Below, one piece after another: positions 809-26,342 of a stretch of 37,355 nt of DNA; the first letter of the stretch is position 1; every line of letters begins with the position of its first letter. A program made the translations under genes and the position numbers. The DNA is from Planctomyces sp. (GTDB lineage: Bacteria > Planctomycetota > Planctomycetia > Planctomycetales > Planctomycetaceae): assembly GCA_005778225.1 (NCBI GenBank), contig SXPC01000088.1, positions 1-37,355 of the forward strand, written 5' to 3'. Below the pieces are notes generated by a model that saw nothing but the letters and a program-made list of their open reading frames with translations, had not been told where the DNA came from and ran no database searches.

Positions 809-2308
809 ATGCCCATTCTCGTTGTCTTTCTCCTCCTGCTCTTCCCCTCTCCCACCTTCGCTCAAAGCCCCTCCAAAGCCAAAGTCACCATCGGCTCCAA
901 AGCCTTCACAGAGTCCGTCATCCTTGGCGAAATGCTCTCTCAACTTTCGTCGCACACCGGTGGCGACGTCAATCATCGCAAACAACTCGGCGGCACTCAG
1001 GTCGTCTACCAGGGGCTCCTCAAAGGCGAGATCGACGCCTACGTCGAATACACTGGCACCATCTCGACCGAGATCCTCCGCAGTCAGCCCGGCATCTCCT
1101 TCGACGAGATGAAACGCGACTTGGCAGAGCAGGGGGTCGAGATATCCAACTCACTTGGCTTTAACAACACCTACGCCATCGGCATCAAACAGGAAACCGC
1201 GAGCAAACTCGGCCTCAAGAAAATCTCCGATCTCCAGCAACACCCCGATCTCCGTATCGGCTTCTCCGACGAATTCCTCAAACGCCAGGACGGCTGGCCC
1301 GGTTTACGCCGCGTCTACAATCTCAACAATGCTTCCCCGCGAGGCATGGACCATGCACTCGCCTATCAGGCCCTGCGCACTGGTTCTCTCGACGTCATCG
1401 ACCTCTACACCACAGACGCGGAAATCCAAGCCGAGAATCTCGTCGTCCTCGAAGACGACCTCCATTACTTCCCCGAATACCAAGCCGTCATTCTCTACCG
1501 CGACGACCTGAAATACCGCGCCCCCCAAGCCGTTAACGCCCTCCTCACCCTCCAGGAGAAAATCAACGAAAACACCATGATCGCCCTCAATGCCGAGGCG
1601 ATCATCGACCACAAGTCCGAACGTCTGATCGCCGCCACCTTCCTTCAGCAGAACATTGACCCGACCATCCCCATCCCCGCTACCGGTCAGCGCCAGGACA
1701 TCCGTCGTGCCCTTACTGACTTTCTGCGCAACACCTACGATCACCTCTTCCTCGTCACCATCTCGCTGGCCGCGGCCATCATCGTCTCGATCCCTCTGGG
1801 CGTCGTCGCGTATCAAAACCCTAAATGGGGACACCTCATCCTCACCATCACCGGCATCATCCAGACGATCCCCTCACTGGCGATCCTCGTCTTCATGATT
1901 CCTCTCATCGGCCTGGGGACCTGGCCCGCGATTTTTGCCCTCTTCCTTTACAGCCTTCTCCCGATTGTCCGCAACACTTACACAGGACTCAAAAATATCC
2001 CCCAAAGCATCCACGAATCCGCTCAGGCCCTCGGCCTCCCGATGATGGCCCGTCTTCTCAAAATCGAACTTCCTCTCGCAGCCCGCTCCATCCTCGCCGG
2101 AATCAAGACAGCGGCAGTCATCAACGTCGGGACGGCAACCATCGGCGCTCTGATCGGGGCAGGGGGCTACGGCCAACCGATCCTCACAGGCATCCGCCTG
2201 CTCGATTACGGCCTCATCTTCCAGGGCGCCATCCCCGCCGCCATCCTCGCCTTGCTCGTTGAACAGGTCTTCAACGTCTTCGAAAAACGGTTCACCACAG
2301 CTTCGTAA
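809..2308 (+). CDS. Osmoprotectant ABC transporter substrate-binding/permease fusion protein
   Basis: A 499-residue single-chain binding protein plus permease for a quaternary-amine importer. Residues 1-19 form a signal peptide ending near TFAQ. Residues about 23-285 match the OpuCC/OsmX-type binding fold, beginning VTIGSKAFTESVILGEML and including QLGGTQVVYQGL and EYTGTI. From about residue 308 a permease domain follows with several hydrophobic helices (LFLVTISLAAAIIVSIPLG) and the cytoplasmic EAA-type loop ESAQALGLPMMARLLKIELPL, then GALIGAGGYGQPI. Fusions in Helicobacter ProWX and Bacillus OpuFB carry the permease first; here the order is reversed. The partner ATPase is the gene just upstream. 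There is no clear Shine-Dalgarno site before the ATG. Family assignment is firm; the transported solute is unknown. Confidence 0.92.
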   Translation: MPILVVFLLLLFPSPTFAQSPSKAKVTIGSKAFTESVILGEMLSQLSSHTGGDVNHRKQLGGTQVVYQGLLKGEIDAYVEYTGTISTEILRSQPGISFDEMKRDLAEQGVEISNSLGFNNTYAIGIKQETASKLGLKKISDLQQHPDLRIGFSDEFLKRQDGWPGLRRVYNLNNASPRGMDHALAYQALRTGSLDVIDLYTTDAEIQAENLVVLEDDLHYFPEYQAVILYRDDLKYRAPQAVNALLTLQEKINENTMIALNAEAIIDHKSERLIAATFLQQNIDPTIPIPATGQRQDIRRALTDFLRNTYDHLFLVTISLAAAIIVSIPLGVVAYQNPKWGHLILTITGIIQTIPSLAILVFMIPLIGLGTWPAIFALFLYSLLPIVRNTYTGLKNIPQSIHESAQALGLPMMARLLKIELPLAARSILAGIKTAAVINVGTATIGALIGAGGYGQPILTGIRLLDYGLIFQGAIPAAILALLVEQVFNVFEKRFTTAS

Positions 2309-2413
2309 TGGCCGCCGAAACGCGAAAGTTTGATCGGCATCCTCTCGCAAACGGTTTCAAAACAGATAAAATGGTGGACGTTTCAATATAACTTCCAACC
2401 CGCTCAACTCAGC

Positions 2414-2430
2414 TGTGACAGGATGTCACA
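2414..2430. promoter_or_regulatory. Perfect palindrome upstream of the hybrid kinase gene, possible operator
   Basis: TGTGACAGGATGTCACA has 6-bp arms around 5 bp. It resembles a CRP/FNR-type half-site pair but its spacing is one base longer than the E. coli CRP consensus TGTGA-N6-TCACA. It lies 47 bp before the ATG chosen for the kinase and overlaps an alternative ATG at 2423. The regulatory role is inferred. Confidence 0.35.
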
Positions 2431-2476
2431 TCGTGAATATTCTACCGCCACGCCACCAACGGCGAATCGGACTTCC

Positions 2477-5400
2477 ATGACCTCACTGGTGCTACGCGAC
2501 TGGCTCACCTCAAACTCTGATCCTCTCGAGCCATTTCGCATTCTGGCCGAGACGCTTCCTCAACTTGTCTGGACCGCCCGCCCCAACGGCGAACTCGAAT
2601 TCGTCAATCGACGGTGGATTGAATACACGGGTTTCGATTCCGACGACGCACAGTCAGGTGCCTGGAAAAAACTCATTCATCCTGAAGACTTTCTGGAGGC
2701 TTCCGCTCATTGGGAACATTCCCTCAAGCACTTTACCCCTCTCGAAACACAAAACCGTTTCCTCGGCAGAAACGGCGAGTATCGCTGGTTCCTTATCCGT
2801 GCCGAGCCACTCCTCGATTCGAATGGCCAGCCCGTCATGTGGTTTGGCACCTGCACCGATATCCACAACGAGCGTTCCGAACAACACCGTCTGAGAGATC
2901 GCTGCCAAACGATCGTTGAAAACGCCAACGACGGTGTCCTCGAAGTCTCCCTTTACGGGACGATCCAGTTTGCTAACCGACGCATGGCCGAACTCCTCGG
3001 TTGCCCGGTCGATGAACTCGTCGGCAGATCGGCACTCGACTTCCTTTTCGAGGAAGAACAACGTCGGGCCCGTATCCGCCTTGAAGCCCGTCGGGAAGGC
3101 CACGGCGAACGCTATGAAGCCCGCTGGCGACGAGCCGATGGTTCCGAAATCTGGATGCACACTGCCAGTACCCCTAAATACGACGCGAATGGCGAGATCA
3201 TCGGCTCCTTCGGTATCTTCACCGATCTGACCTCACTGCGTCATTCGCAAAGCCTGCTCCAAGTCTCCGAACAACGCTTCAAAACCTCAATCGATAACCT
3301 CATCGACTGCTTCGCCATCCTTTCATCCATTCGTGACGACGCCGGTCAGATCGTCGACTTCAAATTCGAGTACCTGAATCCCAACGCCTGCAAAGTCCAT
3401 CGAATGACGTTCGAGGAGCAGATTGGCCACGGCCTGCTCGAACTCATGCCTGTCCATCGCGACAACGGCCTCTTCGACGCCTACAAATCCGTCGTTGAGA
3501 CCGGCAAACCTTACACCGACGAACATCAGCACATCGAAGAACTCGAATCAGGCCACAAGATCTCCCACTGGTTTGAGATTCGTGTCACTCGCATGGACGA
3601 TGGCTTTGTTGCTTCCTGGCGAGACATCACCGCTCGCAAAACTGCTCAGCTCAAGCTCGAAGCCATGATCGAGCCCTATCGCAACCTGGCTGAATCACTC
3701 CCGCAACTCGTCTGGGTCAGCGATTACGCAGGCAACATCACCTATTACAACTCGAAAGTTGAGAACTATTCCGGCATCATGAAAGACAAGGACGGTACCT
3801 GGAAATGGCAACCCGTCCTTCATCCAGATGATCACTCTGTGACCATCCAAGCTTGGCAAGCTGCTCTCAGCACTGGCATCATCTACGAATGCGAACACCG
3901 CATCTCCATGAACGACGGCTCGTATCGCTGGCATCTCAGCCGGGCGATCCCGATGGGAGAAGATTACACCCGCCAATGGTTCGGCACCGCCACTGACATC
4001 CATGCCATCAAGCTCGCAGAACGCAACGCCCGTGAACACCATTCTGCTTTAACGCTCAGTGAAGGCAGATTCCGCGCCGCCGTCGATGCCGTCGGAGGGC
4101 TCCTCTGGACAAACTCCTCAGAAGGCCTCATGCATGGCGAACAGCCTGGCTGGGCCACCTTCACAGGCCAAACATACGACGAGTATCAAGGCTATGGCTG
4201 GGCCAAAGCCGTCCACCCCGAGGACGTCCAGCCTTCTATCGAGTCCTGGAAAAAAGCGGTCGCCCATCAATCGACTTACATCTTCGAACATCGCCTCCGG
4301 CGTCACGACGGCGTTTACCGCTTCTTCGCCATCCGCGCTGTTCCCGTCCTCAATGAAGACGGCACAATTCGTGAATGGGTCGGCGTCCACGTCGACATCA
4401 CCGAACAGCGAGAAGCCGAACAAGCCCTCCGAGTCAGCGAGGAAAAGTTTCGACTCATCGCTGACACCATGCCTCAGATCGTCTGGAGCACTCGTCCGGA
4501 CGGTTATCACGACTACTTCAACAAACGCTGGTACGAATACACTGGCATGCCTCTTCCCCATGAACCCGGCGGGGAATATGACCCGCATGAATCCGGACAG
4601 GGCTGGAACTGGAAAGAGTATTTGCATCCCGACGACTACGAGCCCTCCGTCCAACGTTGGCAGGAGTCGCTTCGGACCGGCGAACTTTACACGATCGAGT
4701 ATCGTTTTCGACGTACAGATGGTGTCTATCGATGGTTCATCGGACGCGCCCTCCCTCTCAGAAACGAAGATGGCGAAATCACCCGCTGGTTCGGAACCTG
4801 CACCGATGTGGAGGACGTGAAAGCTGCCGAGAATGCCCTGCGTGACGCCGACCGTCGTAAAGACAACTTCCTTGCCACCCTGGCTCACGAGCTTCGCAAT
4901 CCCCTCGCCCCCATCCGCAGCGCCACCGAACTCCTCAAGCTGACCTCGATCGACGATCCCGTCATCGACGAAATCCGCGACGCCATCGACCGCCAGGTCA
5001 CCCACATGGTCCGTCTCATCGACGACCTCCTCGACATCAGCCGCATCACCAACGGTAAGCTCCAACTTCGACATGAGCCTGTCATTCTTCAGCAGGTTCT
5101 TCAGTCAGCGATCGAAACCTCCATGCCTCTGATCACAGCAGGCCAGCATCAACTCAATATCCAGACTGTCAAAGAACCGATCCCGCTTGTGGGGGATCCC
5201 GTACGACTCGCGCAGATCTTCTCCAACCTCCTCACCAATGCCGCCAAATACAGCGAACCCGGCGGCGACATCTCCATCATCGTCAACCGTCTCGAATACG
5301 AAGTCTGCGTCATCGTCCGCGACCACGGCATCGGCATCCCACCCGAACACCTCCCCCGACTCTTCGAGATGTTCTCGCAAGTCCAGGCGGCCGTCGACCG

Positions 5401-5956
5401 CTCACAAGGCGGCTTAGGGATCGGCCTCTCCCTCGTCCGTGCACTCGTCGAGCACCACGATGGCACCGTCGAGGCACACAGCCAAGGCCTCGGCACCGGC
5501 AGTGAATTCACCGTCCGACTCCCGATTCGCCAACATGATGTCCCCGTTCCAATAACCGTCGCAACCCCCGCTCAACCCATCCCGAAACAAACCGTTCCGA
5601 AGTCTCGCCGAATCCTCGTCGTTGACGATAGCCCCACGATCGCCCGCATGCTCTCAATGCTTCTGGCCACCAAAGGCCACGAAGTCGAAACCGCCAGCAA
5701 CGGCGAAGAAGCCCTGTCCGCACTGCAGTCAAGCGTCTACGACCTCGTCCTCATGGACATCGGCATGCCCATCATGAACGGCTACGAAGCCGCGAAACGC
5801 GCCCGCGCCGCCGGCATCAAGATCCCCATGGTCGCCCTCACCGGCTTCGGCAGAGTAGAAGACAAACACGCCGCTACGCAAGCCGGCTTCAACGCCCACC
5901 TCATCAAACCGATCAGCAGCCAGGCGCTCGATCAGGTGCTGGGGCAGCTTCCATGA
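2477..5956 (+). CDS. Multi-PAS hybrid sensor histidine kinase/response regulator
   Basis: Soluble hybrid kinase of about 1159 residues; no membrane segment or signal peptide is visible. Six PAS/PAC units follow one another (roughly residues 18-135, 140-258, 265-385, 395-515, 525-640, 650-785); several share the ETLPQLVW...NRRWIEYTG and WFGTCTDI signatures. Then come HisKA with FLATLAHELRNPL (His near 804), HATPase_c with NLLTNAAKYSEPGG, DHGIGIPPEHL and GGLGIGLSLV, and a receiver (about 1043-1159) with LVVDDS, the phospho-acceptor in LVLMDIGMP and Lys in LIKP. No output regulator is adjacent. The ORF track starts at a TTG at 2330. Downstream ATGs at 2423 and 2477 are more likely, and I chose 2477 because it leaves the palindrome at 2414 free. 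The ligand is unknown. Confidence 0.9.
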   Translation: MTSLVLRDWLTSNSDPLEPFRILAETLPQLVWTARPNGELEFVNRRWIEYTGFDSDDAQSGAWKKLIHPEDFLEASAHWEHSLKHFTPLETQNRFLGRNGEYRWFLIRAEPLLDSNGQPVMWFGTCTDIHNERSEQHRLRDRCQTIVENANDGVLEVSLYGTIQFANRRMAELLGCPVDELVGRSALDFLFEEEQRRARIRLEARREGHGERYEARWRRADGSEIWMHTASTPKYDANGEIIGSFGIFTDLTSLRHSQSLLQVSEQRFKTSIDNLIDCFAILSSIRDDAGQIVDFKFEYLNPNACKVHRMTFEEQIGHGLLELMPVHRDNGLFDAYKSVVETGKPYTDEHQHIEELESGHKISHWFEIRVTRMDDGFVASWRDITARKTAQLKLEAMIEPYRNLAESLPQLVWVSDYAGNITYYNSKVENYSGIMKDKDGTWKWQPVLHPDDHSVTIQAWQAALSTGIIYECEHRISMNDGSYRWHLSRAIPMGEDYTRQWFGTATDIHAIKLAERNAREHHSALTLSEGRFRAAVDAVGGLLWTNSSEGLMHGEQPGWATFTGQTYDEYQGYGWAKAVHPEDVQPSIESWKKAVAHQSTYIFEHRLRRHDGVYRFFAIRAVPVLNEDGTIREWVGVHVDITEQREAEQALRVSEEKFRLIADTMPQIVWSTRPDGYHDYFNKRWYEYTGMPLPHEPGGEYDPHESGQGWNWKEYLHPDDYEPSVQRWQESLRTGELYTIEYRFRRTDGVYRWFIGRALPLRNEDGEITRWFGTCTDVEDVKAAENALRDADRRKDNFLATLAHELRNPLAPIRSATELLKLTSIDDPVIDEIRDAIDRQVTHMVRLIDDLLDISRITNGKLQLRHEPVILQQVLQSAIETSMPLITAGQHQLNIQTVKEPIPLVGDPVRLAQIFSNLLTNAAKYSEPGGDISIIVNRLEYEVCVIVRDHGIGIPPEHLPRLFEMFSQVQAAVDRSQGGLGIGLSLVRALVEHHDGTVEAHSQGLGTGSEFTVRLPIRQHDVPVPITVATPAQPIPKQTVPKSRRILVVDDSPTIARMLSMLLATKGHEVETASNGEEALSALQSSVYDLVLMDIGMPIMNGYEAAKRARAAGIKIPMVALTGFGRVEDKHAATQAGFNAHLIKPISSQALDQVLGQLP

Positions 5957-6123
5957 ATCGTCTCCTGACTCAGCATCTTTCTCCGATTGTAAGAAGGCGG
6001 GGCGTCATTAAGGATTTTAACCTCGAATGTTCCATCTGCCTTCGCGGCGTAATGGCATCGTCGGAGCCGATAGTTGACATATGCAGTTACTTCGCACATG
6101 TAATCCACAAATCTTTTGCTCAT
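5932..6123 (-). CDS. Possible 63-residue ORF coupled to the end of the BlaR1-like gene
   Basis: This ORF starts at an ATG that overlaps the TGA stop of the giant peptidase gene (ATGA arrangement typical of translational coupling) and runs 63 residues into the spacer, ending 25 bases inside the convergent kinase gene. The protein (start MSKRFVDYMCEV) matches no family I recognise. Most of it occupies DNA with no other gene. It may be a chance ORF. Confidence 0.2.
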   Translation of the reverse strand: MSKRFVDYMCEVTAYVNYRLRRCHYAAKADGTFEVKILNDAPPSYNRRKMLSQETIHGSCPST

Positions 6124-9100
6124 TGAGCGACCGCGTGAATATCGATAATCCGGTCAGGATACCTGCGTCTCGCATTGCTCTTGTAACCGTATGGAATTTC
6201 GCTCGACCCGATGTTCAGCGACGATATCTGTGGCTCATTCAGAAGCCGGTCACATGCGGACTCAGAAAGCCGGCAGGGTGTGATCCACAAGTCTTTCAGT
6301 TTTGGAAACGCGAGTATCGTTTCCAGACAATCGTCGTCAATCGCGTCACTGTCAGCGACTTTCACGCCACCAACCATGAGTTTTGTCAGTTCACGACAAC
6401 CAGACAATTTGAGAAACCCTGATTGACTGATCGCAGCCTGCTGAAGATCGAGTTCTTCCAGTGATCCCAGCTTCGAAATATGGTCAATTGCTCGGTCAGT
6501 CAGTTTCGGGGTATTCATACCTACCCACATCGATTTGAGGCGAGTCAAACCCACCAAATGACGGAACCCGTCGTCAGTAAATGAATTTCCCTGAAGGGCA
6601 AGTTTTTCCAGTTTCGGCAGCGTTCCGAATGTCTCTAATGAGCCGTCTCCAAGCTTCGCATGACCAAAATGGATGTCTTTCAAATTCTCTAAGCCACGTA
6701 GCGAACGAATGCCCTCATCCGTCAATTTTTTCGCATCCCAGACGATAAGACGCTCCAGCAGTTTCATCCCACTCATGTATTTCATCGAAGCATCGGTCAC
6801 TTGACCGTCGGTGAGTGCCAGTTTTGTCAGTGAATTGCATTTTGCAGCCCACTGCATGCATTCGTCTGTTTGGGTTTGTGAGTTGTCCAGCCGAAAATTT
6901 CTCGTTTTGTCATCGTAATAGACCATATTGATCGTCTTGATGCGTTTGTCATCATTGAGTTCATACCAGCCGCCCAATCGACGAATCGCTTTGGCGACCT
7001 CCACTTCGTCTGCCACAGGCAATTCGAGTTCCACAGCCTGGGTCTTGGGGTTGCCAGGAATCTCTTCTGCATGATAGCGAAGGTCGAGACGTGTCGTTTC
7101 GCCAGCGCGAACGTCAATTCCTTTGGTCCATACATCCCAGTGTTCAAAATGTCTGGCGGTATTTCGATCACCTGGCACTCTGGGAAGATACGTGCCTGGT
7201 GGCAGACAGGTCCGAAAGCTTCCATCGCTTTGGACGGTCATATTTCTTACCCAGACAGGTCGACTGGCAATCGTTGAGTTCCGTTCAATCGAAATCGTTG
7301 TCTTGACTCCTGGAGTGATCTCCAAGTGAGGCTTACCAGTTGCATGGTCGACGATGCTCCCCTCGATCCATCCACCTTTGGTCAATGCAACCTGGACCTC
7401 TGTTTTCACTTCACCATGCCCTGAAAACTTGAAGTCGACTGGAAAAGAAATATGGTCCGCGGAATCAACGCTCAACGAGTATTCGCTGGCTGGCAATCCG
7501 TTGAATCGAAATCTTCCATTCTCATCGGTGACCGCTTGCCCCTCTTTTCCTGTCCAATTCAGCTTGCTCAGTTTGATCGGACAATCACGAATCGGCGATT
7601 GATCGGTTTGATTGACGACAACTCCTTCGACGACATTCTCTTTGAAAAGAACGATGTCTAGTTCACCAGGGATTTGCTGGTAGTAAGCCTCGACGTGAGC
7701 ATACCCGGGATGATCGATGATCAACGGACTCGCAATTTCCATCCAACCTGTCCCATTCCCCTGATCCACAGATTTTGCATTCTTCTGATTCCAGATCGGG
7801 AGATCATCGATTCGGTATTCTCCGTTACGATTGGTCCTGGCTCTGCGGCCAAGCCCATCTGTTTCTGGCCATTCGTTAAATTTTTGCGCGACCAGGACAT
7901 CTGCGAGAGGAAGTCCCTGTTCATCCATGACTTTTCCCGACAGGACGCCGGATTTCCTCATTGTCAATTCGAGGTCATTCGACTCTATGGAGTTATAGCC
8001 AATCGGAGTCATTTCCGTTGCATACCCTTCCTTGGTTAACTGCAACTTGTAGAAGCGATCAAAAAACTTTGTCTGCGGCTGTGACTCAATGAGAATTCCA
8101 CGATCCCCTGAAGGTGGTTCGAGGTCTGAGAATAGAAAAGTTCCTTCATCGTTTGAGAGTGTCTCAGCGGCAAAAGTCTGTGTCTTAGAACTTTCCGTCC
8201 ATTGGTATAACGTCGCTTTGACCCCTCGAAGGGGTTTCTCTTCTCCGTCACGAATCGAACCGGAAACACTGTAGGCGTTCTCATTCTCAGCAGGGGCTTC
8301 AACTTCATCCGCTTCTTCAACAGTCGGTGCCAATTCCCCCATTAGATTTTCGCCAATCCGCTCCGTGCGAATGATGAACGGCTCGACTGCGCCACTCACC
8401 GGAACATTCACGATCCGATGCGCACTGCCAACGGGCATCACCAGTTGATATTCGGGATGCTCCAGACTGCCATAGACGTAAGTGATGCCTGGTAAACTCT
8501 CAAAGCTCGTGAGTCCATCTTCGTCAGTTGTTCTTGTCCAAAGCTTCACAGAGGCATGATGTCGTTCTAATTGCTGTGCCTGAATCTCATTCTCATCAAC
8601 TCCGATCCAATCTTTAGCCGCACTCCACGAATGCCCCAACAAAAATGAGCCATGATGATAGAAAGTCAGATTAGGGTACACGCTGACCTTAGCACCTGTC
8701 AGCGGCTTCCCCTCCGGATCCAGGCATTTCAACGTGACACTGTTCGTTTTCTCCATCGGAATGAACACACCATCCGACTGGCTCGAAGAAACCAATTGCG
8801 GCCAAAGACTGACACCATCGATACCTTGAAGTTGTTTCAAATAGGGCTCGAATTCTGGATCATTTCGTAACTCCTTGAGTTTCGGCTGCGACGACCACCA
8901 GCCATCGCACATCGCCACCAACTGAATCGGCACATCTCGCGGCAGCGAATCGAACTTGAATGCCCCATCCGGCTGTATCTCAACAGCGTCAGCAAATGAC
9001 AATCGCTTCTGGTTATTGGGATCACTCGAATCGAGGTAGACACATTGAGCCAGCACAGAACCATTTTTAACGGGTCGAGGAACCGCCTCATCGATCCTTC

Positions 9101-12100
9101 CCGACATCGAATGTCCAGGACTCAGCAAGACATCCTTGACGATTCGCAGTTCTCCCTCCTTTATCCAGTCGCTGGCAGAGATCACGTTACTGAACAGTAT
9201 CTGGCCCGATTCCGTTCGATGTGCAACTTGCGCAATCCTCGGCTGATCGTCGCGTCGACTTGATACCAAGGTATTTGGCGGCTGAAAACTAAATTTTTTA
9301 TCGCCTCTCCAGAGATCGCTGAACATGACATGTGTCGACATCGGCCTGACCGGTGTGTTCTCTCCTGCAAACGAGATCTGGTACACGACGCCGCGCTGCA
9401 ATGGAACCCTCTGCCGCATCAAATATACCGGAGCATCTCGTCTGTTCTGCTTCAACAGATCGAGTTCATGATTCTTCGCTGCAAACTCAGGATGCTCAAC
9501 AAGAATCGAAAGCACCGACGTCCTCATCTGCTCGACGACAAACTCCGGATAATCAATCGTGATTTCACCTTTCTCATTCGAGACATCGTCTGGCTTACTA
9601 CCATGAAATTCTTCTGACCAGGTATAAGAACTTCCCCTGTCAATGAGGGTCCTCAGCCCGAGAATATCAACCTTCGCCCCCTGCACAGGTTTCCCGTCTT
9701 CATCATAGACCTCGAGCACAATCTGCCGACGCTCTTTCTGCCGCGGTGTGACTTCGACGGGGGTTTCCACGACTGGCTTTTCGTCGGTCGCCGGATTCTT
9801 AGTCTCGGCCTGCATCTCTGCAACCGCTTGATTCAGCGGTCTTGCAACCATCTCCGCGTTATGAGAAGTCTTTCGCTCCTGCTCTCCAATCGCCTTCCCA
9901 TCCTTTCGTTGCGCCTTGCGCACCTTCACTTCAAACTCTTCTGTCCGCCCCGGAACAAAATCAAACGTTGCTCCAGCCGTCCCGATGAAGTCATACCGAT
10001 ACCCATGCAGAAACGGCCCATGATCCAGCCCGAAGCCGAGCGTCTGCTTCCCGGCTGGGAGATGAACAATAATGACACCATCAGCATCACTGACGGGGTG
10101 ATAAGACAGAGGGTGCCCGACTGCCCGGTCGTACCTGTCTTCGAAGTAGCGAACTTTTCCGTTTCCGTGTTTCTTCCAGATACTGAAGCCCTCGACTCCG
10201 TGATGCGTATCCACGTCAACGATGCGAAGCTTCAAGACCGCCGCAGGGACTAGAGAGACTTTGAAAATTTCGTTTGATTCCGTGTCGACATCTATTGATG
10301 CCCTGGCAGGCAGATAGGGAACCTCTGGCGATAGAAATGAATAAACGACATTTTCTCCGCGCCTCGCGATAAGGGAAATTCGCCCGTCGCGATCTGTGAC
10401 AGCATGATCACGACCAGAAGTCCATGTACGATGACAATACGCCAAGAGTCCGGCGATTGGGCTTCCAGTCACTTCATCGGTGAACTCGACAGTGATCGGA
10501 ATCGCCTCTTGGAGAGTTAAATCTACGGCTTTGCTGTAGAGGTGGTCCTTTCGTTCCGGATCTGATGGTCCCTCGAGAGTCACTTCGTAGTACTGGCGTG
10601 TTACATATCCTTTTGCTTTGATTCTGAATGTTGCGTGGCAGTTCGATGGCAGGTCTTCGAACACAAATTCGCCGTTGCTGTCTGTTGTGATCTGTGACGA
10701 GCGTGTAAATGGTGACCATTGACTGCCAAGAGTTCGGAATTCCGCATCAGGAGAAGTCCTTGGACTCTCCACCTGTTTTGCCAGACGAATCAGCTCAACG
10801 ACAGCACCTTCAATGGGCTGGTTGCTTTCGTCGTGAATAACTCCATTTAGTTTTTTAGGTTCGGAAAACGCCAGCGTGATGTCGAATTCCTGTGGTGTCG
10901 GATGCTTAACCAGAGGCGTCGCTGACTCATCGGAGGTCATCCAATTCGCATCTGACCTCAGAGAGAGTCGTGGTTCAAATGCGACAGCATAATCGGGATG
11001 CGTTCCGTAGACCTCAAACGCCCCTTGTATTTCACCCGGTCCGTTCATCGGCAAAGCGACGCTCTCGAAACGATAATGCCCCTCATCATTTGTTGTTGTC
11101 TGAGCGAGCAGCTTCTTCTCGGTCCGGACCGATGTGACAAAGATGGTCGCGCCCGAAATCGGTTGACCATCCAAATCGACAGCACGCCCGGATACACGCA
11201 GATCAAAGAGACCATCTTTGAAATGCGGCGTTGGGGCAGGGTTCTTGCCTGTTAAAATAACAGTGACTGGCTCGCTGTTTATTTGAGACTCATTTGGTAA
11301 TGCATCCAGAGTAATCTCGTTACGCCAAATTCCAGGATGCGAAACGCTCATCACAATATCACAATCACCCGGCAGTGAACGAATCCGGAACTTGCCATCT
11401 GCCTGACTATAAAAAGCAGCCATCACTGGGAGTTGACGGATCACGTTCATGAGATTGTCTTCGCCTCGTTTAATTGACTGCAACTGCACCTTGGCCTGGT
11501 CAATCGGAGTTCCATCCGCCGCAACTGCCTGGCCTTCAAAGACGCGTTCCACTGGAAACGAAAGTCGAAAGTCTCTCTGCGTCTGATCCAAGGCAAGACG
11601 ACTCACGGCAATGCCGTAGCCTTCTGCGATTCCGACCAGGTGCATACGTGGAACGTCTCGTAACCGCGATAACGTCACATGATCGAAGTGAAACTGACCA
11701 TCTTTGTCAGTGACGACCTCTCCAACCAGTCCATCAGGAATTGATGACGAATAGAGACTGATCTTCGCGCTGGAGACCGGTTTTCCTTGAGAGTCGACTG
11801 ACTGGCCACGAATCGAGACAGAACCATCCTCATGCTCGACGACAGCATAGCTGGCTTCGTTTCTGTCGGGGATCAAACGAAAGATCATCAACGAGATCCC
11901 AGCCAGACATGAAAAAATCAGCAAGCGAGTCGCCATCGTTCGCGAAACAGCGAATCGGTTCACCGTTCGATCGAGAATCGTCTTCAGTCGCAACTCGATA
12001 CTCGGAGTCGACACGATCGCCACGCCGACTGCGGGCCACATCCGTCGCAGGCGTCCCTGTGAAACGACATCCAGTAATGAGCGGGCGTAGTCCGCTGCAC

Positions 12101-13025
12101 AGACGCCGGAGTTCAAAACCAGATCGTCACAGGCCTGTTCCCTGAATCGCTCGATCTGGCGTAACGCAAACCACAACAGTGGCTGCGGCCAGTAGATGAC
12201 TTTCGTCAACTCCACGACGACCTGCCAGAGCGGATCGCTACGTTTCACATGGGCCAATTCATGCAGCAAGACTGACCGCTGCTGCTCGATTGGCCACGAC
12301 GTGATGGTCTCGGGCACGATAATCACCGGCTGCCACAATCCCCAGACCATGGGCATCGTCTCCGGGGTCGAAAGGCGAACATCGACTGATCGCCTCAATC
12401 GCAAAGAGCTTCTCAACGAGGCGACCAGCGTTACAAGCGGCTCATCAGTCATCATGGGCAGCTGAGAAGTTTTTCGCCACAACATAAAGACAGAGGAGAT
12501 GAGTCGTAGCATGAGTAAGCACGCGATACTTCCCCAGAGGACGACTACCCATTTCAAAACGGCAGTGAAACGCCAGAGTATTGCAGATGGCATCTCGACA
12601 CGGTCAATCGGCCTAAAGATTCGAGGTTCGCCTCCCACGATGACTGTCTCTTCACGGGTGCGAACTCTCACGTTCGGTGTCGAAACAGGATCCGGAAAAG
12701 GATTCGTGGGAATACGAGTCTGTGCAGGCTCAGTTGAAGCAGCCTGATTCTTCGTGACGGTATCGGGGGGATTGTGAGTCGCTGCGATCGCGCGTTGTTC
12801 GGTTGGGGATGGATCGAACGACACCATGAACCACTCTTCCGGCAACATGTTCCATCCCGGCATCCACGCCTGTCCGACCGGCAGGACCAGCAGCGACAGA
12901 CAGGCCAGCTTCCAAACCAGATGCCTCGCCCCCGCAGACTGCTTTCGTATTGCATAGGCAACGATTGTCGCCAGCACGAGAACGACCGTCGATTTCCAAC
13001 CCAGTTCCAGAAAGTAAGTCGTCAT
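6120..13025 (-). CDS. Giant BlaR1-like M56 metallopeptidase with carboxypeptidase-regulatory-like modules and C-terminal LRR
   Basis: A 2301-residue membrane protein. The N-terminal about 390 residues are an M56/BlaR1 antirepressor peptidase: membrane helices near 12-26, 36-50 and 155-180, the zinc motif HELAH at 255-259, a likely third ligand in FREQACDD (Glu about 296), and a further helix near 372-390. In place of BlaR1's penicillin sensor the long extracytoplasmic part repeats beta-sandwich units of the CarboxypepD_reg/CnaB type, recognised by recurring 'GxPxxGAxVxL...T(D/N)xxGxFxFxxLP' patterns (for example GKPVSSAKISLYS, GQPISGATIFVTS, GKPLTGAKVSVYP). From about residue 2030 leucine-rich repeats follow (SLTKLALTDGQVTDASM, LENLKDIHFGHAKLGDGSL). 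It starts 3 bp after the blaI stop, an operon. On family grounds it should cleave BlaI upon sensing an envelope signal; the ligand is unknown. Confidence 0.9.
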   Translation of the reverse strand: MTTYFLELGWKSTVVLVLATIVAYAIRKQSAGARHLVWKLACLSLLVLPVGQAWMPGWNMLPEEWFMVSFDPSPTEQRAIAATHNPPDTVTKNQAASTEPAQTRIPTNPFPDPVSTPNVRVRTREETVIVGGEPRIFRPIDRVEMPSAILWRFTAVLKWVVVLWGSIACLLMLRLISSVFMLWRKTSQLPMMTDEPLVTLVASLRSSLRLRRSVDVRLSTPETMPMVWGLWQPVIIVPETITSWPIEQQRSVLLHELAHVKRSDPLWQVVVELTKVIYWPQPLLWFALRQIERFREQACDDLVLNSGVCAADYARSLLDVVSQGRLRRMWPAVGVAIVSTPSIELRLKTILDRTVNRFAVSRTMATRLLIFSCLAGISLMIFRLIPDRNEASYAVVEHEDGSVSIRGQSVDSQGKPVSSAKISLYSSSIPDGLVGEVVTDKDGQFHFDHVTLSRLRDVPRMHLVGIAEGYGIAVSRLALDQTQRDFRLSFPVERVFEGQAVAADGTPIDQAKVQLQSIKRGEDNLMNVIRQLPVMAAFYSQADGKFRIRSLPGDCDIVMSVSHPGIWRNEITLDALPNESQINSEPVTVILTGKNPAPTPHFKDGLFDLRVSGRAVDLDGQPISGATIFVTSVRTEKKLLAQTTTNDEGHYRFESVALPMNGPGEIQGAFEVYGTHPDYAVAFEPRLSLRSDANWMTSDESATPLVKHPTPQEFDITLAFSEPKKLNGVIHDESNQPIEGAVVELIRLAKQVESPRTSPDAEFRTLGSQWSPFTRSSQITTDSNGEFVFEDLPSNCHATFRIKAKGYVTRQYYEVTLEGPSDPERKDHLYSKAVDLTLQEAIPITVEFTDEVTGSPIAGLLAYCHRTWTSGRDHAVTDRDGRISLIARRGENVVYSFLSPEVPYLPARASIDVDTESNEIFKVSLVPAAVLKLRIVDVDTHHGVEGFSIWKKHGNGKVRYFEDRYDRAVGHPLSYHPVSDADGVIIVHLPAGKQTLGFGLDHGPFLHGYRYDFIGTAGATFDFVPGRTEEFEVKVRKAQRKDGKAIGEQERKTSHNAEMVARPLNQAVAEMQAETKNPATDEKPVVETPVEVTPRQKERRQIVLEVYDEDGKPVQGAKVDILGLRTLIDRGSSYTWSEEFHGSKPDDVSNEKGEITIDYPEFVVEQMRTSVLSILVEHPEFAAKNHELDLLKQNRRDAPVYLMRQRVPLQRGVVYQISFAGENTPVRPMSTHVMFSDLWRGDKKFSFQPPNTLVSSRRDDQPRIAQVAHRTESGQILFSNVISASDWIKEGELRIVKDVLLSPGHSMSGRIDEAVPRPVKNGSVLAQCVYLDSSDPNNQKRLSFADAVEIQPDGAFKFDSLPRDVPIQLVAMCDGWWSSQPKLKELRNDPEFEPYLKQLQGIDGVSLWPQLVSSSQSDGVFIPMEKTNSVTLKCLDPEGKPLTGAKVSVYPNLTFYHHGSFLLGHSWSAAKDWIGVDENEIQAQQLERHHASVKLWTRTTDEDGLTSFESLPGITYVYGSLEHPEYQLVMPVGSAHRIVNVPVSGAVEPFIIRTERIGENLMGELAPTVEEADEVEAPAENENAYSVSGSIRDGEEKPLRGVKATLYQWTESSKTQTFAAETLSNDEGTFLFSDLEPPSGDRGILIESQPQTKFFDRFYKLQLTKEGYATEMTPIGYNSIESNDLELTMRKSGVLSGKVMDEQGLPLADVLVAQKFNEWPETDGLGRRARTNRNGEYRIDDLPIWNQKNAKSVDQGNGTGWMEIASPLIIDHPGYAHVEAYYQQIPGELDIVLFKENVVEGVVVNQTDQSPIRDCPIKLSKLNWTGKEGQAVTDENGRFRFNGLPASEYSLSVDSADHISFPVDFKFSGHGEVKTEVQVALTKGGWIEGSIVDHATGKPHLEITPGVKTTISIERNSTIASRPVWVRNMTVQSDGSFRTCLPPGTYLPRVPGDRNTARHFEHWDVWTKGIDVRAGETTRLDLRYHAEEIPGNPKTQAVELELPVADEVEVAKAIRRLGGWYELNDDKRIKTINMVYYDDKTRNFRLDNSQTQTDECMQWAAKCNSLTKLALTDGQVTDASMKYMSGMKLLERLIVWDAKKLTDEGIRSLRGLENLKDIHFGHAKLGDGSLETFGTLPKLEKLALQGNSFTDDGFRHLVGLTRLKSMWVGMNTPKLTDRAIDHISKLGSLEELDLQQAAISQSGFLKLSGCRELTKLMVGGVKVADSDAIDDDCLETILAFPKLKDLWITPCRLSESACDRLLNEPQISSLNIGSSEIPYGYKSNARRRYPDRIIDIHAVAQ

Positions 13026-21629: not shown

Positions 21630-22847
21630 CTACTCAATCAGGACCACAGGCAACGAAAGGGCCAGTCGACGAAACGCTTCCTTTAATTCGTCTTCACTAC
21701 TGGCGAAGTAATGGGTTCCGCCAGTCAGTGTTGCAATCTGTTTCATCGTTCCCTGGTCCGTGCCTTCGAGAAACGAAATGGTGTGAATGATGATCCCAGA
21801 GTTCTTCGCCGTCTGGGCTGTCGTCAGCGGATCCCCCCCTTGGTTCCATTGCCCATCGCTCATCAGAATGATGACCTTCTGAGTCATCGGACGAATATTC
21901 TTCGCTGTCAGAACAGCGATGGCTTCCGTCAATCCGGATGACATATTCGTCCCGCCGAGCATGATGTCATTGCCCAGCGACGTCACATCTCCGGTGATCT
22001 TTGTGTAGTCGGTTGTCAGTTCACGGTTCCGGGTGACCGCTGCAAATGTTCGTTTCGTCAGGTTGCCTTCGTAGTTGGAACTGGTGATCTGAGATCCCCA
22101 GGTGACCAGCCCGATCTGTGGGGTTGTTTCGAGTTGTTTGAGCGTCTGCATAAATGTTGAAATTGCGTTTGACAGGCTCGACCATCGACTTAACGCCGGA
22201 TGCGGTGAACTCGCCAGATGCTTGTCGCTGTCAGACCTGAGGTTCTTAACAAGAATTCGTGATGCCACCAGCGGCGGATAATCCCAATCATTCCCTGAGC
22301 GATCGAAGCACATGGAATGCGAACGGTCCAGGCAGAGGACGATATCCTGCTCAAATTGAGCCGCGGTCGCAATTTCTTTCGGTGTGAATATCTCAGTACC
22401 AACCAGCTTACCGAAGAATAAGCCGACCGGGGGATTCCCGCTCGTCCCGTCGAGCTTCGGCATCACTCGAACAGAGGTAAAAGGAGTTTTCCCGTTTTGG
22501 AATGACCAGGAACCATCCGGATTCATGGTCGAGTTGCCAATTTCGATATCATTACTTCTCAACACCAGCGAGCGTCCTGCGACTTTATTCTGGCTGGCAA
22601 CATGAATTGCCGCCTCAATCGCCTTCTGCTGATTCTGAGTGCGTGAAAGAGCCTCAGTCCCCGCTTTGGCAGCCGCATCGCTGGCGGCGCGCAAGTCCGT
22701 CTTCGCCAGTTCCATCCATGCAACATCGACCGTAAAGCTGACCATGATCAGCATCACAACCAGCAGCGATGTCATGAGAACAAGCATGGCACCGAGTCGG
22801 TTCGACTGATTGGTCATCAGCTCGGTTGGAACGAAGAACTTCTTCAT
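21630..22847 (-). CDS. vWA-domain TadG-like protein
   Basis: A 405-residue protein. The N-terminus has a Tad_N/TadG-type hydrophobic helix (RLGAMLVLMTSLLVVMLIMVSFTVDVAWMELAKTDLRAASDAAAKAGTEAL). From about residue 165 comes a von Willebrand A domain with an intact MIDAS: LCLDRSHSM (DxSxS), Thr in GGTNMSSGL and Asp in ILMSDGQWNQGG. It should be anchored by one helix with the vWA domain outside, binding a protein partner through a divalent metal. Its ATG overlaps the stop of the upstream TadE gene by four bases (ATGA), so the two are translationally coupled; 57 bp separate it from the downstream TadE. TadG of classical Tad loci has this architecture. Confidence 0.87.
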   Translation of the reverse strand: MKKFFVPTELMTNQSNRLGAMLVLMTSLLVVMLIMVSFTVDVAWMELAKTDLRAASDAAAKAGTEALSRTQNQQKAIEAAIHVASQNKVAGRSLVLRSNDIEIGNSTMNPDGSWSFQNGKTPFTSVRVMPKLDGTSGNPPVGLFFGKLVGTEIFTPKEIATAAQFEQDIVLCLDRSHSMCFDRSGNDWDYPPLVASRILVKNLRSDSDKHLASSPHPALSRWSSLSNAISTFMQTLKQLETTPQIGLVTWGSQITSSNYEGNLTKRTFAAVTRNRELTTDYTKITGDVTSLGNDIMLGGTNMSSGLTEAIAVLTAKNIRPMTQKVIILMSDGQWNQGGDPLTTAQTAKNSGIIIHTISFLEGTDQGTMKQIATLTGGTHYFASSEDELKEAFRRLALSLPVVLIE

Positions 22848-23263
22848 AGACGAATCATCCGAATAGTCGATTCAAAGTAGCCACCTTTGAACAGAAAGTT
22901 GATAGGCAGCCGATTATCTTTTTCGATCACGCGAACACGCATCGAAATCTCCGTCCCGCGAAGCGTACTTGAGTTAATCGCCGGCGTCACATCGACGTCA
23001 TATTTCGTGATCCCGCGAGCATTCAGGATCTCTTTGACGCGCAGTTCCGCAGACGCCTGTGTCCCGCCGCTGGCAGTCGCGACACGGGCTCCTTCGTAAG
23101 CAGCTGTCGTTGCAGCCTGACGCATGTAGATCCCGTTGGCAGCTTCAATCGACATCAGGAGAAGCGAGAGCACCAGCGGCAAAAAGACAGCAAACTCCAC
23201 CATCGCGCCGCCGCGACGGGAGTGATTTTGAGCATTGAATTTCAGAACACGTCTGTGTCGCAT
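22844..23263 (-). CDS. TadE-like pseudopilin (first gene of cluster)
   Basis: A 139-residue protein. Start set at the ATG at 23263; the 44 extra residues of the track ORF (starting MPDGRNLRC) overlap an inverted repeat and look non-coding. The TadE signature is RRGGAMVEFAVFLPLVLSLLLMSIEAANGIYMRQAATTAAYEGARVA. It is paralogous to the TadE gene at 21147: both share the 'AAYEGAR/AVYEGAR' segment right after the helix. It is first in the minus-strand cluster and coupled by ATGA overlap to the vWA gene. There is no strong Shine-Dalgarno site. Confidence 0.85.
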   Translation of the reverse strand: MRHRRVLKFNAQNHSRRGGAMVEFAVFLPLVLSLLLMSIEAANGIYMRQAATTAAYEGARVATASGGTQASAELRVKEILNARGITKYDVDVTPAINSSTLRGTEISMRVRVIEKDNRLPINFLFKGGYFESTIRMIRL

Positions 23264-23677
23264 GTTCGCTGAGTCATTCAGGAAGAAGGCGGAATTCGAA
23301 ACTGTGCACGGTTTGGCACCGGGCACCGTTTGGCACCGTGCACTCAACCTTATGGTGCAAACCGACGCACACCTGAGGTTTCTCCCGTCTGGCAACAGGA
23401 AATGTCACGTTCGGGCGAACTTTGACGGTTATGCCGATCTGCGAAACATGTCCTGATGATTCAACAGTAACGTCTTTACGATGACATTTTGTCTTCTCGA
23501 GCTCCGCTCGTCAGAGTCCGGCACATGCCCGACGCCTCTTCGTTACGATCAATACATCAGGAACAGCCTTCAAAGGCGACGTTCCCAGTCGCGCGTGGTC
23601 GATGTCGTGACACTTGAGGACAGAGGCATTCAAACACGGAAGTAACGCGTCCTGTGACGGACGTCTGGAGATCAGGG
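23264..23677. other. Divergent intergenic region between the Tad cluster and the secreted-protein gene
   Basis: About 410 bp holding both outward promoters. The only structure I see is the inverted repeat at 23304-23343, 41 bp before the Tad cluster ATG. No convincing sigma-70 or sigma-54 box was found. Confidence 0.5.
23304..23343. repeat. Inverted plus direct repeat upstream of the Tad cluster
   Basis: GTGCACGGT and ACCGTGCAC are perfect 9-bp arms around 22 bp. Inside, two direct copies of GTTTGGCACCG lie 17 bp apart. It could form a hairpin in the 5' leader of the TadE mRNA or bind a regulator. Confidence 0.6.
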
Positions 23678-24058
23678 ATGAACTGCAACGTATCTCGCAT
23701 CGTCGTAGGAGGCCTACTCGGCCTGGGAATGCTCACCAGCTCCGCACAAGCCGGCGGGAAATGCTACGACTGCCTTCTGAAGAAGTTTCCCCCCGGACTG
23801 CCATGCTTCTTCTACCCGCATCACGGCGTCGTCTGCGAACCGCCTCGTAAGGACTACAAGCCTTACACCTACGAATGTGCCACGAAAAACCCACTGCTGT
23901 ATTACGGGCCATCTGGTCCATTGATGCGACCCCTGCAAGTCTATGTTCCGCCAATGATCCCCGACGCCCCTTACTGCCCCGAAGGCGAAATGGGACATCC
24001 CATGAGTACGCCTTTGTCTCCCACGCCTGAGCCCGGTGTTCACCACCCGCTGTATTGA
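23678..24058 (+). CDS. Small secreted Cys/Pro-rich protein, unknown function
   Basis: A 126-residue protein. The ATG at 23678 is chosen because GGAG lies seven bases upstream; the track start is 24 bases further out. A signal peptide (VSRIVVGGLLGLGMLTSSAQA) has a clear AxA cleavage site, leaving a mature chain beginning GGKCYDCLLKKF. The mature chain holds several Cys residues (CYDC, LPCFF, VVCEPP, YECATK, PYCPEG) and is rich in Pro and Tyr. I recognise no family; short secreted proteins of this style are common in planctomycetes. It is probably exported and disulfide-bonded. The two genes that follow encode lipoproteins on the same strand, but a sigma-54 promoter lies between, so it is probably a separate transcript. 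Confidence 0.72.
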   Translation: MNCNVSRIVVGGLLGLGMLTSSAQAGGKCYDCLLKKFPPGLPCFFYPHHGVVCEPPRKDYKPYTYECATKNPLLYYGPSGPLMRPLQVYVPPMIPDAPYCPEGEMGHPMSTPLSPTPEPGVHHPLY

Positions 24059-24135
24059 TCGCCCAGAGAGCAGAGTGGTCGTTACTCACTCGAAAGTCGC
24101 CATGAAAAAATGCGGATAATGGGTGATTACCTAAC

Positions 24136-24151
24136 TGGCACCCGCTTTGCA
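24136..24151 (+). promoter_or_regulatory. Sigma-54 (RpoN) promoter
   Basis: TGGCACCCGCTTTGCA matches the -24/-12 consensus TGGCACG-N4-TTGCW with one mismatch and exact GG-GC spacing. It is in a non-coding stretch and points at the lipoprotein gene 43 bp downstream. Confidence 0.75.
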
Positions 24152-24194
24152 TTGTGTTCGTAGCGTCAACACATGGTCCATTGAAAGGAACCAC

Positions 24195-24431
24195 ATGAGT
24201 ACGCTGCGAAACCATGCCTCCAAATTATTCCTGGCAAGTCTGTGCCTCACCGGTCTGACCTTCTCATCAGGCTGTGAACGCAAGGTTCTCGATATCGAGG
24301 GTCCTGGCGGTTCGGGTATCGAAGTCAAAGAGAACCCAATCACCAACGAGAAGAAGGTGGAAGTGAAGGGAGACGAAGACACTCCCCCACCGGTCGTCGT
24401 GCCAGAACCAGCACCTGCTCCCGTTGATTAA
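24195..24431 (+). CDS. Small lipoprotein, unknown function
   Basis: A 78-residue protein starting at the ATG at 24195, with AAAGGA five bases upstream; the 16 upstream residues of the track ORF overlap the promoter region. The N-terminus (KLFLASLCLTGLTFSSGC) ends in a lipobox with Cys about 27, so the mature protein is about 50 residues. It is charged and acidic (GIEVKENPITNEKKVEVKGDED) and ends in a Pro/Val-rich tail (PPPVVVPEPAPAPVD) that could span peptidoglycan. No family is recognised. The sigma-54 promoter upstream implies control by an enhancer-binding protein, and a terminator 24 bp past its stop makes it a single-gene transcript. Confidence 0.75.
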   Translation: MSTLRNHASKLFLASLCLTGLTFSSGCERKVLDIEGPGGSGIEVKENPITNEKKVEVKGDEDTPPPVVVPEPAPAPVD

Positions 24432-24454
24432 CATCCTTGCGGCATAAATGAATG

Positions 24455-24495
24455 ATCCTTTCTCCACGAGGCGACTCGAGGGGGAGGGATTTTTT
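24455..24495 (+). terminator. Rho-independent terminator after the small lipoprotein gene
   Basis: A long GC-rich hairpin (ATCC.../...GGGAT with an inner CGAG-GCGA-CTCG stem) followed by six T residues. Confidence 0.75.
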
Positions 24496-24599
24496 CGTTA
24501 GCAACGCGATGTCTGCGCCCTTCCCCAATTTGACCAGCACCTCCGTCGCTGATAGCATCCGACCTGAAAGTTCAGGCTTGCACACAGGAGGTTTCTATC

Positions 24600-26342
24600 A
24601 TGGTCAGAGTTCTGCTCACACTCTTCATCGCGCTCTCATTCACCTTCACCACTGGCTGCGAAAAACCCGCGAACGCTCCCAGTAAACCCTCCGAGTCCGT
24701 CCCTCCTGAACCGTCCTTAGGCGAGCCACAAAACTCGACGTCAACCGCTCCTGCTGAAGTTTCCTCCTCGACTGGTTCGATCACAAAACCCGACTCCCCT
24801 AAAGAACCTGTGTCTATTCCTGATCCCGCAAAAGCTCGCATCCCCGGTCGCGAAGCGATCTATCACGAACTCCCCAACGGAGAACAACTCATCGCCGATG
24901 CCATCAAAACTGCTCAGCGCGAACACAAGAATGTTCTTATCGAATGGGGCGGCAACTGGTGTGGCTGGTGCTATAAGCTTCACGATGTTTTCCATAAAGA
25001 TTCTGCCGTTCAGCCCATAGTCTTCGAAGAATACGTCCTTGTCCTGATCGACCAGGGTAAAAACATGGACCTCCTCAAACACTACGACACTTCGACCGTA
25101 GATTTTGGATATCCTCATCTCACTATCCTCGACGCTGAGGGCAAACTCCTCACCAACCAAGAAACAGGTGCCCTTGAATCCGGCAAACATCACGATCCAA
25201 AAGTTGTGGCGGATTTCCTTACCAAATGGAAACCCGAAGCCCAGGATGCGCAGACACTCCTCACAACAGCTCTCGAACAAGCCAAAATCAACAAAAAGAA
25301 AATCCTCCTCCGCGTAGGTACGCCGTACTGCGGCTGGTGCAAAGTCCTCTCCAAGTTCATCGATGACTACAAAGACCTCTTTGCCAAAGACTACGTCGAC
25401 CTCAAAATCGACACCATGCGCATGACCAATGGCGAAGACGTCGCCAAACGCTTCCTACCAGGGGATAGCCTTGGCGTCCCATGGTTCGTTATTCTCGACG
25501 CTGACGCAAAAACTCTCGCCACGTCCGTCGGTTCGGGCGGCAATATCGGCTATCCCTATAAGCCCGAGGAGATCGCCCACTTCGTCTCCATGCTCAGAAC
25601 TACGCGCACGAACCTGACTGACGAAGACCTCGTCATCATTTCGACCGCCATGAACACCTATCGCAAAACCCGCGAAGCAAAAACTGACACACCCGCTGCC
25701 GAACGTGCCACCATCTATTCCGTCGAATCCGTCGCCGGCTCTCTCAAAGACGAAACTGCGACCGTGACAGCCAAAGGCACCGTCACGAGCGGCGGCTGGA
25801 GTAACCCCGACCTCCACGCAGTCACTTACATCCAACCACCACCCGATGGCATCTGGGACTACACCTTCACCGCCCAGCGCCCTTCCGGCATCGCGACCAT
25901 GGCCTTAGCCCCGATCGAAACGAGCCCCATCACCATCGAAAACGCCAAGAGCAAGAAAGGCATCCGCGTCGCCACCAACGAAAACTCGTTCACCCTCCGC
26001 TTCCTTCAGGAAACCCAGTCAGTCCCCAAGCCCGTCGACTCCGTCACCATCAAGTCTGCCAAAACCGAAGGGAACACCCTCGTATTGGACGTTTCCTACA
26101 CCGGTGGAGATCACGATAATCACGAATTCGAACTCCACTGGAACGGCATCTCGACTCGCAGCATGCCACCACAAATGAACTTCCTCCTGACTCACAAAGC
26201 CCAAGGCGACACCGCCAAAGCCATCATCGAAAAACCCATCTACTTCGCCCTCCCAGCAACCATCGCCCCGGCTGTCATCCGAATAAGATCCACCGAGGAC
26301 GGTGAACCCACCGAAATCAAACTGGAAGCCCCAACTCACTAA
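24600..26342 (+). CDS. Lipoprotein with two thioredoxin-like domains
   Basis: A 580-residue exported protein. An ideal AGGAGG lies eight bases before the ATG. The signal sequence LLTLFIALSFTFTTGC gives a lipidated Cys, followed by a Ser/Pro-rich linker. Two thioredoxin-like domains follow: domain 1 (about 95-210) has GGNWCGWCYKLHDVF; domain 2 (about 220-345) has GTPYCGWCKVLSKF and the cis-Pro loop GVPWFVILDAD. The CGWC motifs and 'VLIEWGGNWCGWCYKLHDVF' style match thioredoxin_7/DUF255-like proteins. The C-terminal 190 residues are beta-rich and unassigned. Two redox-active pairs in one envelope protein suggest a disulfide reductase or isomerase role, but this is inference. The promoter must lie in the 100 bp after the preceding terminator. 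Confidence 0.85.
   Translation: MVRVLLTLFIALSFTFTTGCEKPANAPSKPSESVPPEPSLGEPQNSTSTAPAEVSSSTGSITKPDSPKEPVSIPDPAKARIPGREAIYHELPNGEQLIADAIKTAQREHKNVLIEWGGNWCGWCYKLHDVFHKDSAVQPIVFEEYVLVLIDQGKNMDLLKHYDTSTVDFGYPHLTILDAEGKLLTNQETGALESGKHHDPKVVADFLTKWKPEAQDAQTLLTTALEQAKINKKKILLRVGTPYCGWCKVLSKFIDDYKDLFAKDYVDLKIDTMRMTNGEDVAKRFLPGDSLGVPWFVILDADAKTLATSVGSGGNIGYPYKPEEIAHFVSMLRTTRTNLTDEDLVIISTAMNTYRKTREAKTDTPAAERATIYSVESVAGSLKDETATVTAKGTVTSGGWSNPDLHAVTYIQPPPDGIWDYTFTAQRPSGIATMALAPIETSPITIENAKSKKGIRVATNENSFTLRFLQETQSVPKPVDSVTIKSAKTEGNTLVLDVSYTGGDHDNHEFELHWNGISTRSMPPQMNFLLTHKAQGDTAKAIIEKPIYFALPATIAPAVIRIRSTEDGEPTEIKLEAPTH

Follow-up and report, generated by a model that had tools for sequence, protein, structure and literature searches.

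A small planctomycete lipoprotein gene behind a perfect sigma-54 promoter and its probable place in a stress regulon of Planctomycetia

Introduction

What controls a solitary gene for a tiny lipoprotein that lies behind a sigma-54 promoter, and does it share this control with other genes? The question is raised by a 37,355-bp stretch of Planctomyces sp. DNA (contig SXPC01000088.1), which was analysed as a whole and is referred to here as the window. The first-pass annotation of this DNA had described a 78-residue lipoprotein under RpoN control and read it as a single, dedicated output of an envelope response. Here, we followed the promoter, the gene and their relatives through the genome and the class Planctomycetia. 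As the draft assembly is 87% complete and spread over 305 contigs, the lists of operons and regulon members given below are incomplete.

Results

The lipoprotein gene is preceded by a perfect −24/−12 element

The element TGGCACCCGCTTTGCA is located at positions 24136–24151 of the forward strand. It matches TGGCACN5TTGCA (−24 TGGCAC, −12 TTGCA) with no mismatch, which bears out the near-perfect match claimed earlier; the GG and GC dinucleotides are both present with the correct spacing, and no other site in the window has fewer than two mismatches to the consensus. Transcription would be expected to start ∼12 bp after the −12 GC, at approximately position 24162 of the same strand, as judged from the sequence. 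Across the 5.1-Mb genome, the perfect pattern TGGCACN5TTGCW occurs seven times versus four for the backward pattern, so a single perfect match taken alone could be due to chance. The looser pattern TGGCAYN5YTGCW occurs at the control rate (22 versus 19), and looser sites are therefore cited only where they have extra support. TGGCACCCGCTTTGCA gains weight from its position, as it is intergenic and lies on the sense strand, 43 bp upstream of the lipoprotein ATG. Two sigma-70-like matches were found nearby, both at or beyond the end of the open reading frame; one sigma-70-like match, at 24530–24558, is upstream of the next gene. Although these genome-wide counts would allow the −24/−12 match to be accidental or inactive, with a housekeeping promoter driving the gene, we reject this highly improbable reading because of the position and strand of the site, the conservation of such sites at homologs, the palindrome upstream of it and the location of the two sigma-70-like matches.

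Start codons lie downstream of five of the seven perfect sites; the genes encode the lipoprotein, a DUF1328 protein, Ku, an alcohol dehydrogenase and a PDZ protein. Of the remaining two, one lies within a long antisense open reading frame and the other has no identified gene. The genome encodes RpoN (E = 9.7e-63) and ∼13 strong matches to enhancer-binding proteins (EBPs).

The gene probably forms a short unit with its own terminator

The open reading frame (24195–24431, forward strand) starts 5 nt after a likely ribosome-binding site, AGGA (24186–24189, forward strand). Its translation and its homologs assign the 78-residue predicted lipoprotein to a planctomycete family marked by KEKVLD[IV]ETP. 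Residues 1–26 (24195–24272, forward strand) form a predicted signal peptide and lipobox, followed by Cys27; an n-region and a hydrophobic stretch lead to TFSSGC27, a helix is predicted for residues 2–25, and the Gly-Cys pair is invariant in 22 homologs. Compared to the canonical lipobox [LVI]-x-[GA]-C, the Gly at −1 and the Cys at +1 of SSGC fit, whereas the Ser at −3 does not. The protein has no Pfam match at E ≤ 0.01, including the YgdI/DUF903, OsmB and EcnB family profiles. AlphaFold2 modelled the signal peptide as a helix and predicted a short β-hairpin, but with low confidence (pLDDT 63, pTM 0.27), and we therefore claim no fold.

Downstream of the gene, an intrinsic terminator spans 24454–24495 of the forward strand. 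The hairpin (24454–24491) contains 16 pairs, overlaps and then runs into the T-run TTTTTT, and the 86-nt stretch around it folds with an MFE of −34 kcal/mol. A simple terminator scan missed this hairpin; folding, however, gave a z-score of −4.5, with none of 200 shuffles as stable, and the earlier claim that the gene is closed by its own terminator thus held. Together with the location of the gene outside any cluster, this fits a monocistronic unit in this genome.

The surroundings are varied. The next gene downstream (24600–26342, forward strand) encodes a protein with thioredoxin-like domains (Thioredoxin_7, DUF255) that is likewise predicted to be lipoprotein-like. Two adjacent TadE/TadG-like genes occupy 21630–23395 of the reverse strand, and one of them encodes a von Willebrand A domain. 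An open frame of 2301 residues occupies 6120–13025, also on the reverse strand. At 809–5956 of the forward strand, a gene for glycine-betaine transport precedes one for a hybrid histidine kinase that has several PAS domains and a receiver domain.

In relatives, the lipoprotein gene lies in sigma-54-led clusters

With the single protein as query, the best relative was found at E = 6.8e-5 and 51% identity, and a related-locus search returned no loci; with a closer alignment, the latter returned nine planctomycete loci. A profile search identified homologs in 49 of the 298 genomes of the class. The organisms that carry the family include Adhaeretor mobilis, Bythopirellula, Blastopirellula marina, Gimesia, Fuerstiella and a Kuenenia metagenome bin. 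The family motif is C..KEKVLD[IV]ETPxGE[IV]EVERD..TGDVDVEV; the lipobox G and C and the P are invariant across the 22 homologs. Like its relatives, the protein studied here has the signal peptide, the GC lipobox, the LD[IV]E.P motif and a short charged β segment.

In the relatives, the lipoprotein gene is found in short clusters with genes for DUF1328, DUF3309, CsbD, PRC-barrel and DUF2383 proteins, most of which are headed by near-consensus sigma-54 sites; in Blastopirellula marina (locus L180), for example, the lipoprotein gene is clustered with a DUF3309 gene and a site. CsbD, PRC-barrel, DUF2383, Ku and PDZ were named from Pfam and DUF1328 from its profile, while DUF3309 and alcohol dehydrogenase were named by reading the sequences. 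Within 1.1 kb upstream, 20 of 30 lipoprotein loci have a sense-strand site with at most one mismatch. By comparison, the antisense strand gave 2 of 30, stretches taken downstream gave three and shuffles 0.36. Because the genomes are related, neither these counts nor those for DUF1328 below represent independent events. Only 5 of the 30 loci have such a site within 300 bp, and a third have no close site.

The conserved synteny that had been proposed as a check is present among relatives. The idea of one tiny lipoprotein that serves alone as the output of an envelope response is not supported: the homologs usually lie in multi-gene clusters led by sigma-54 sites, and even in this genome perfect sites precede four other genes. 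As a general account, the stand-alone lipoprotein is rejected on the ground of these clusters.

Most DUF1328 genes share the promoter type within the class

Within the class, a site with one mismatch or none lies in the 300 bp upstream of 20 of the 29 DUF1328 genes, against 0.135 in shuffles. As a control of specificity, the same was asked of DUF1328 loci in other classes of the phylum, where only 1 of 23 has a site. The difference indicates that the link between sigma-54 and DUF1328 is particular to Planctomycetia. An outgroup for DUF1328 was also sought in a plasmid collection, with no match.

Ku was considered as a universal member of the same regulon, but this was not supported, as Ku occurs in only 8 of 119 genomes and a near-consensus site is present at three of the six loci for which the start was found. 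The Ku promoter of the present genome has no enhancer-like palindrome. A CsrA-like gene (L166, genome G000, contig C77) is a possible additional member. It lies 114 bp downstream of TGGCACGGCGTCTGCA, one of the looser sites, and its enhancer-like palindrome scores 10.9.

A palindrome upstream of the promoter is a predicted enhancer

Dyad counts upstream of these sigma-54 promoters yielded a palindrome, which was refined to TGGTCG-N5-CGACCA. In a leave-one-out analysis, 28 of 61 promoters outscored 95% of the control windows, where ∼3 would be expected. The counts that seeded the motif included seven promoters of this genome, which introduces a small circularity; the matrix used to score the present site was trained on relatives with this genome excluded.

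With this matrix, ATTGATCGCCCAGAGAGCAGA (24054–24074, forward strand), 82 bp upstream of the lipoprotein promoter, scores 13.2. This is the joint highest score in the window, equal to that of a site at 4255, and it is reached by 1.1% of control 250-bp windows. We predict that ATTGATCGCCCAGAGAGCAGA is an enhancer (upstream activating sequence) for an NtrC-type activator. A possible second and weaker enhancer, AGTGGTCGTTACTCACTCGAA (24074–24094, forward strand), is located 20 bp from the first; it has one good half-site, and its score of 9.2, reached by 8.8% of control windows, is weak alone. Near-identical 17-mers lie upstream of both DUF1328 genes of this genome, a pattern drawn from these three sites and thus partly circular. 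Genome-wide, the pattern recurs at just two more places, of which one is within a coding sequence resembling a DNA polymerase subunit and the second has no evident promoter.

Taken together, the promoter site, the presence of RpoN and EBPs, the conserved sites at homologs in several families and the enhancer-like palindrome make predicted RpoN control of the lipoprotein gene well supported.

A conserved response regulator is the candidate activator

A response-regulator EBP of REC-AAA+-Fis architecture adjoins the clusters in several genera (loci L062, L063, L071, L072 and L076). The best match in this genome to each of these EBPs is one and the same protein, encoded on contig C173, with 48–55% identity; the other full-length EBPs here are 35–40% identical to the activator of the relatives. 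The C173 regulator contains receiver, sigma-54 interaction and Fis domains, its gene lies beside genes for a histidine kinase, DUF2383 and PRC-barrel proteins, and it is the apparent ortholog of the cluster-adjoining EBP. Within the class, DUF1328 lies within ∼1.5 kb of 16 of the best 30 EBP matches. The EBP tree has few resolved branches and was used solely to note that the EBPs of L023 and L069 pair apart from the relatives of the candidate. The search for a cognate EBP suggested earlier has thus produced a good candidate, albeit one encoded outside the window on another contig. From the adjacency of activator and clusters, we infer that the C173 regulator binds the palindrome.

Sensor-kinase-like proteins with similar multi-pass N-termini (DTDGF..RW.CG...) are encoded next to DUF1328 in L128 and L063. 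These proteins may provide an input to the activator.

The lipoprotein gene could instead depend on RpoN through a different EBP, such as that of a ZraR-like system which senses the envelope, and stand outside the DUF1328/CsbD regulon in this genome. Its solitary position and the number of EBPs encoded here would suit such an arrangement, as would an EBP fragment (L025) that matches the activator of a relative at 48%. However, the palindrome learned from the stress promoters of relatives is joint best in the window precisely at the lipoprotein promoter, and its near-identical counterparts precede both DUF1328 genes, which makes control by another EBP improbable.

Discussion

Our analysis suggests that the lipoprotein gene probably belongs to a class-wide stress regulon governed by RpoN and a two-component system, with a C173-type activator and a palindromic enhancer. 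RpoN-RNA polymerase would transcribe the gene from the perfect −24/−12 promoter, at which it would wait until the NtrC-type REC-AAA+-Fis regulator is activated by a sensor kinase. The activated regulator would then bind the palindromic enhancer ∼80 bp upstream and remodel the polymerase. The lipoprotein would be made alongside other small envelope and stress proteins, DUF1328 in this genome and also CsbD, DUF3309, PRC-barrel and DUF2383 proteins in relatives. In this way, the regulon would serve Planctomycetia as sigma-S or EcfG regulons of similar content serve Proteobacteria. The small lipoprotein is presumably membrane-anchored and periplasm-facing, and may help to protect the envelope. Activation of the C173 regulator by a kinase, the nature of the inducing stress, and the location and envelope role of the lipoprotein are inferred parts of this scheme. 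Co-regulation with CsbD and DUF1328 is supported by the clusters and by the shared type of promoter and enhancer, a support that comes from sequence only.

The proposed regulon resembles known systems in different respects. CsbD (YjbJ), DUF1328 (YtjA) and the tiny lipoprotein YgdI of Salmonella are all sigma-S dependent (PMC5437024), and the sigma-S regulon of Salmonella and E. coli thus likewise combines the CsbD and DUF1328 families with a tiny lipoprotein. Different from that regulon, the promoters here are of the sigma-54 type with an NtrC-like activator, and the present lipoprotein gave no match to the YgdI/DUF903 profile or to any other Pfam family. Two-component regulons of the sigma-54/NtrC family (ZraSR-like; COG2204) share the REC-AAA+-Fis architecture, the −24/−12 promoter and, here as a prediction, a palindromic enhancer ∼80 bp upstream, but the genes here are a CsbD/DUF1328/DUF3309 set rather than zinc, nitrogen or flagellar genes. 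EcfG of Alphaproteobacteria is an ECF sigma factor released by PhyR-NepR. Like the regulon proposed here, the EcfG response places a broad stress gene set under one central regulator; there, it is an ECF sigma factor, whereas here it would be an EBP. CsbD is mentioned in a paper on the EcfG general stress response (PMC7083833).

Two studies concern sigma-54 in planctomycetes directly. A survey from 2025 also predicts sigma-54 control computationally in Planctomycetia, with MscS channels, UspA, chaperones and ZraR-like regulators enriched (PMC12316311). Its main text does not contain DUF1328, COG5487, COG3237 or COG1273, and we saw no mention in it of the cluster, the activator or the enhancer. 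In Rhodopirellula baltica, rpoN was unregulated by heat and reduced by salt in a study from 2009, whose authors also suggested that a thioredoxin gene has a sigma-54 promoter (PMC2754498). These rpoN levels count against a stress regulon, although RpoN control acts via the activator and not via the level of RpoN. We found no paper describing the present regulon; as our search was thin on subscription journals, this is weak evidence of novelty.

Which signal does the regulon answer? The lipoprotein may belong to it while the regulon responds to one specific signal, such as osmotic stress, starvation or biofilm growth, instead of stress in general. One response regulator and the kinase next to it point to a single input, and the window carries the glycine-betaine transporter and PAS hybrid kinase genes. 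On the other hand, the set of DUF1328, CsbD, DUF2383 and Ku resembles general stress regulons; sequence cannot separate the two, and we regard the specific signal as rather unlikely.

As a wider reading, which we advance tentatively, Planctomycetia may use sigma-54 for their general stress response, together with a single conserved response-regulator activator that has an enhancer code of its own. These would replace a factor of the sigma-S, sigma-B or EcfG type, and the lipoprotein would be one output. This switch of sigma factor is suggested by the DUF1328 genes, which carry sites in this class and rarely do so in other classes of the phylum. How planctomycetes organise their general stress response is not settled, as far as the literature we found goes. 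With a candidate activator, a defined enhancer and a marker gene set that is found in several genera, among them those of the cultured Blastopirellula marina and Adhaeretor mobilis, the question becomes experimentally answerable. If the reading is true, Planctomycetia would offer a clear example of a conserved set of stress genes that is controlled by a sigma factor of a different mechanistic class.
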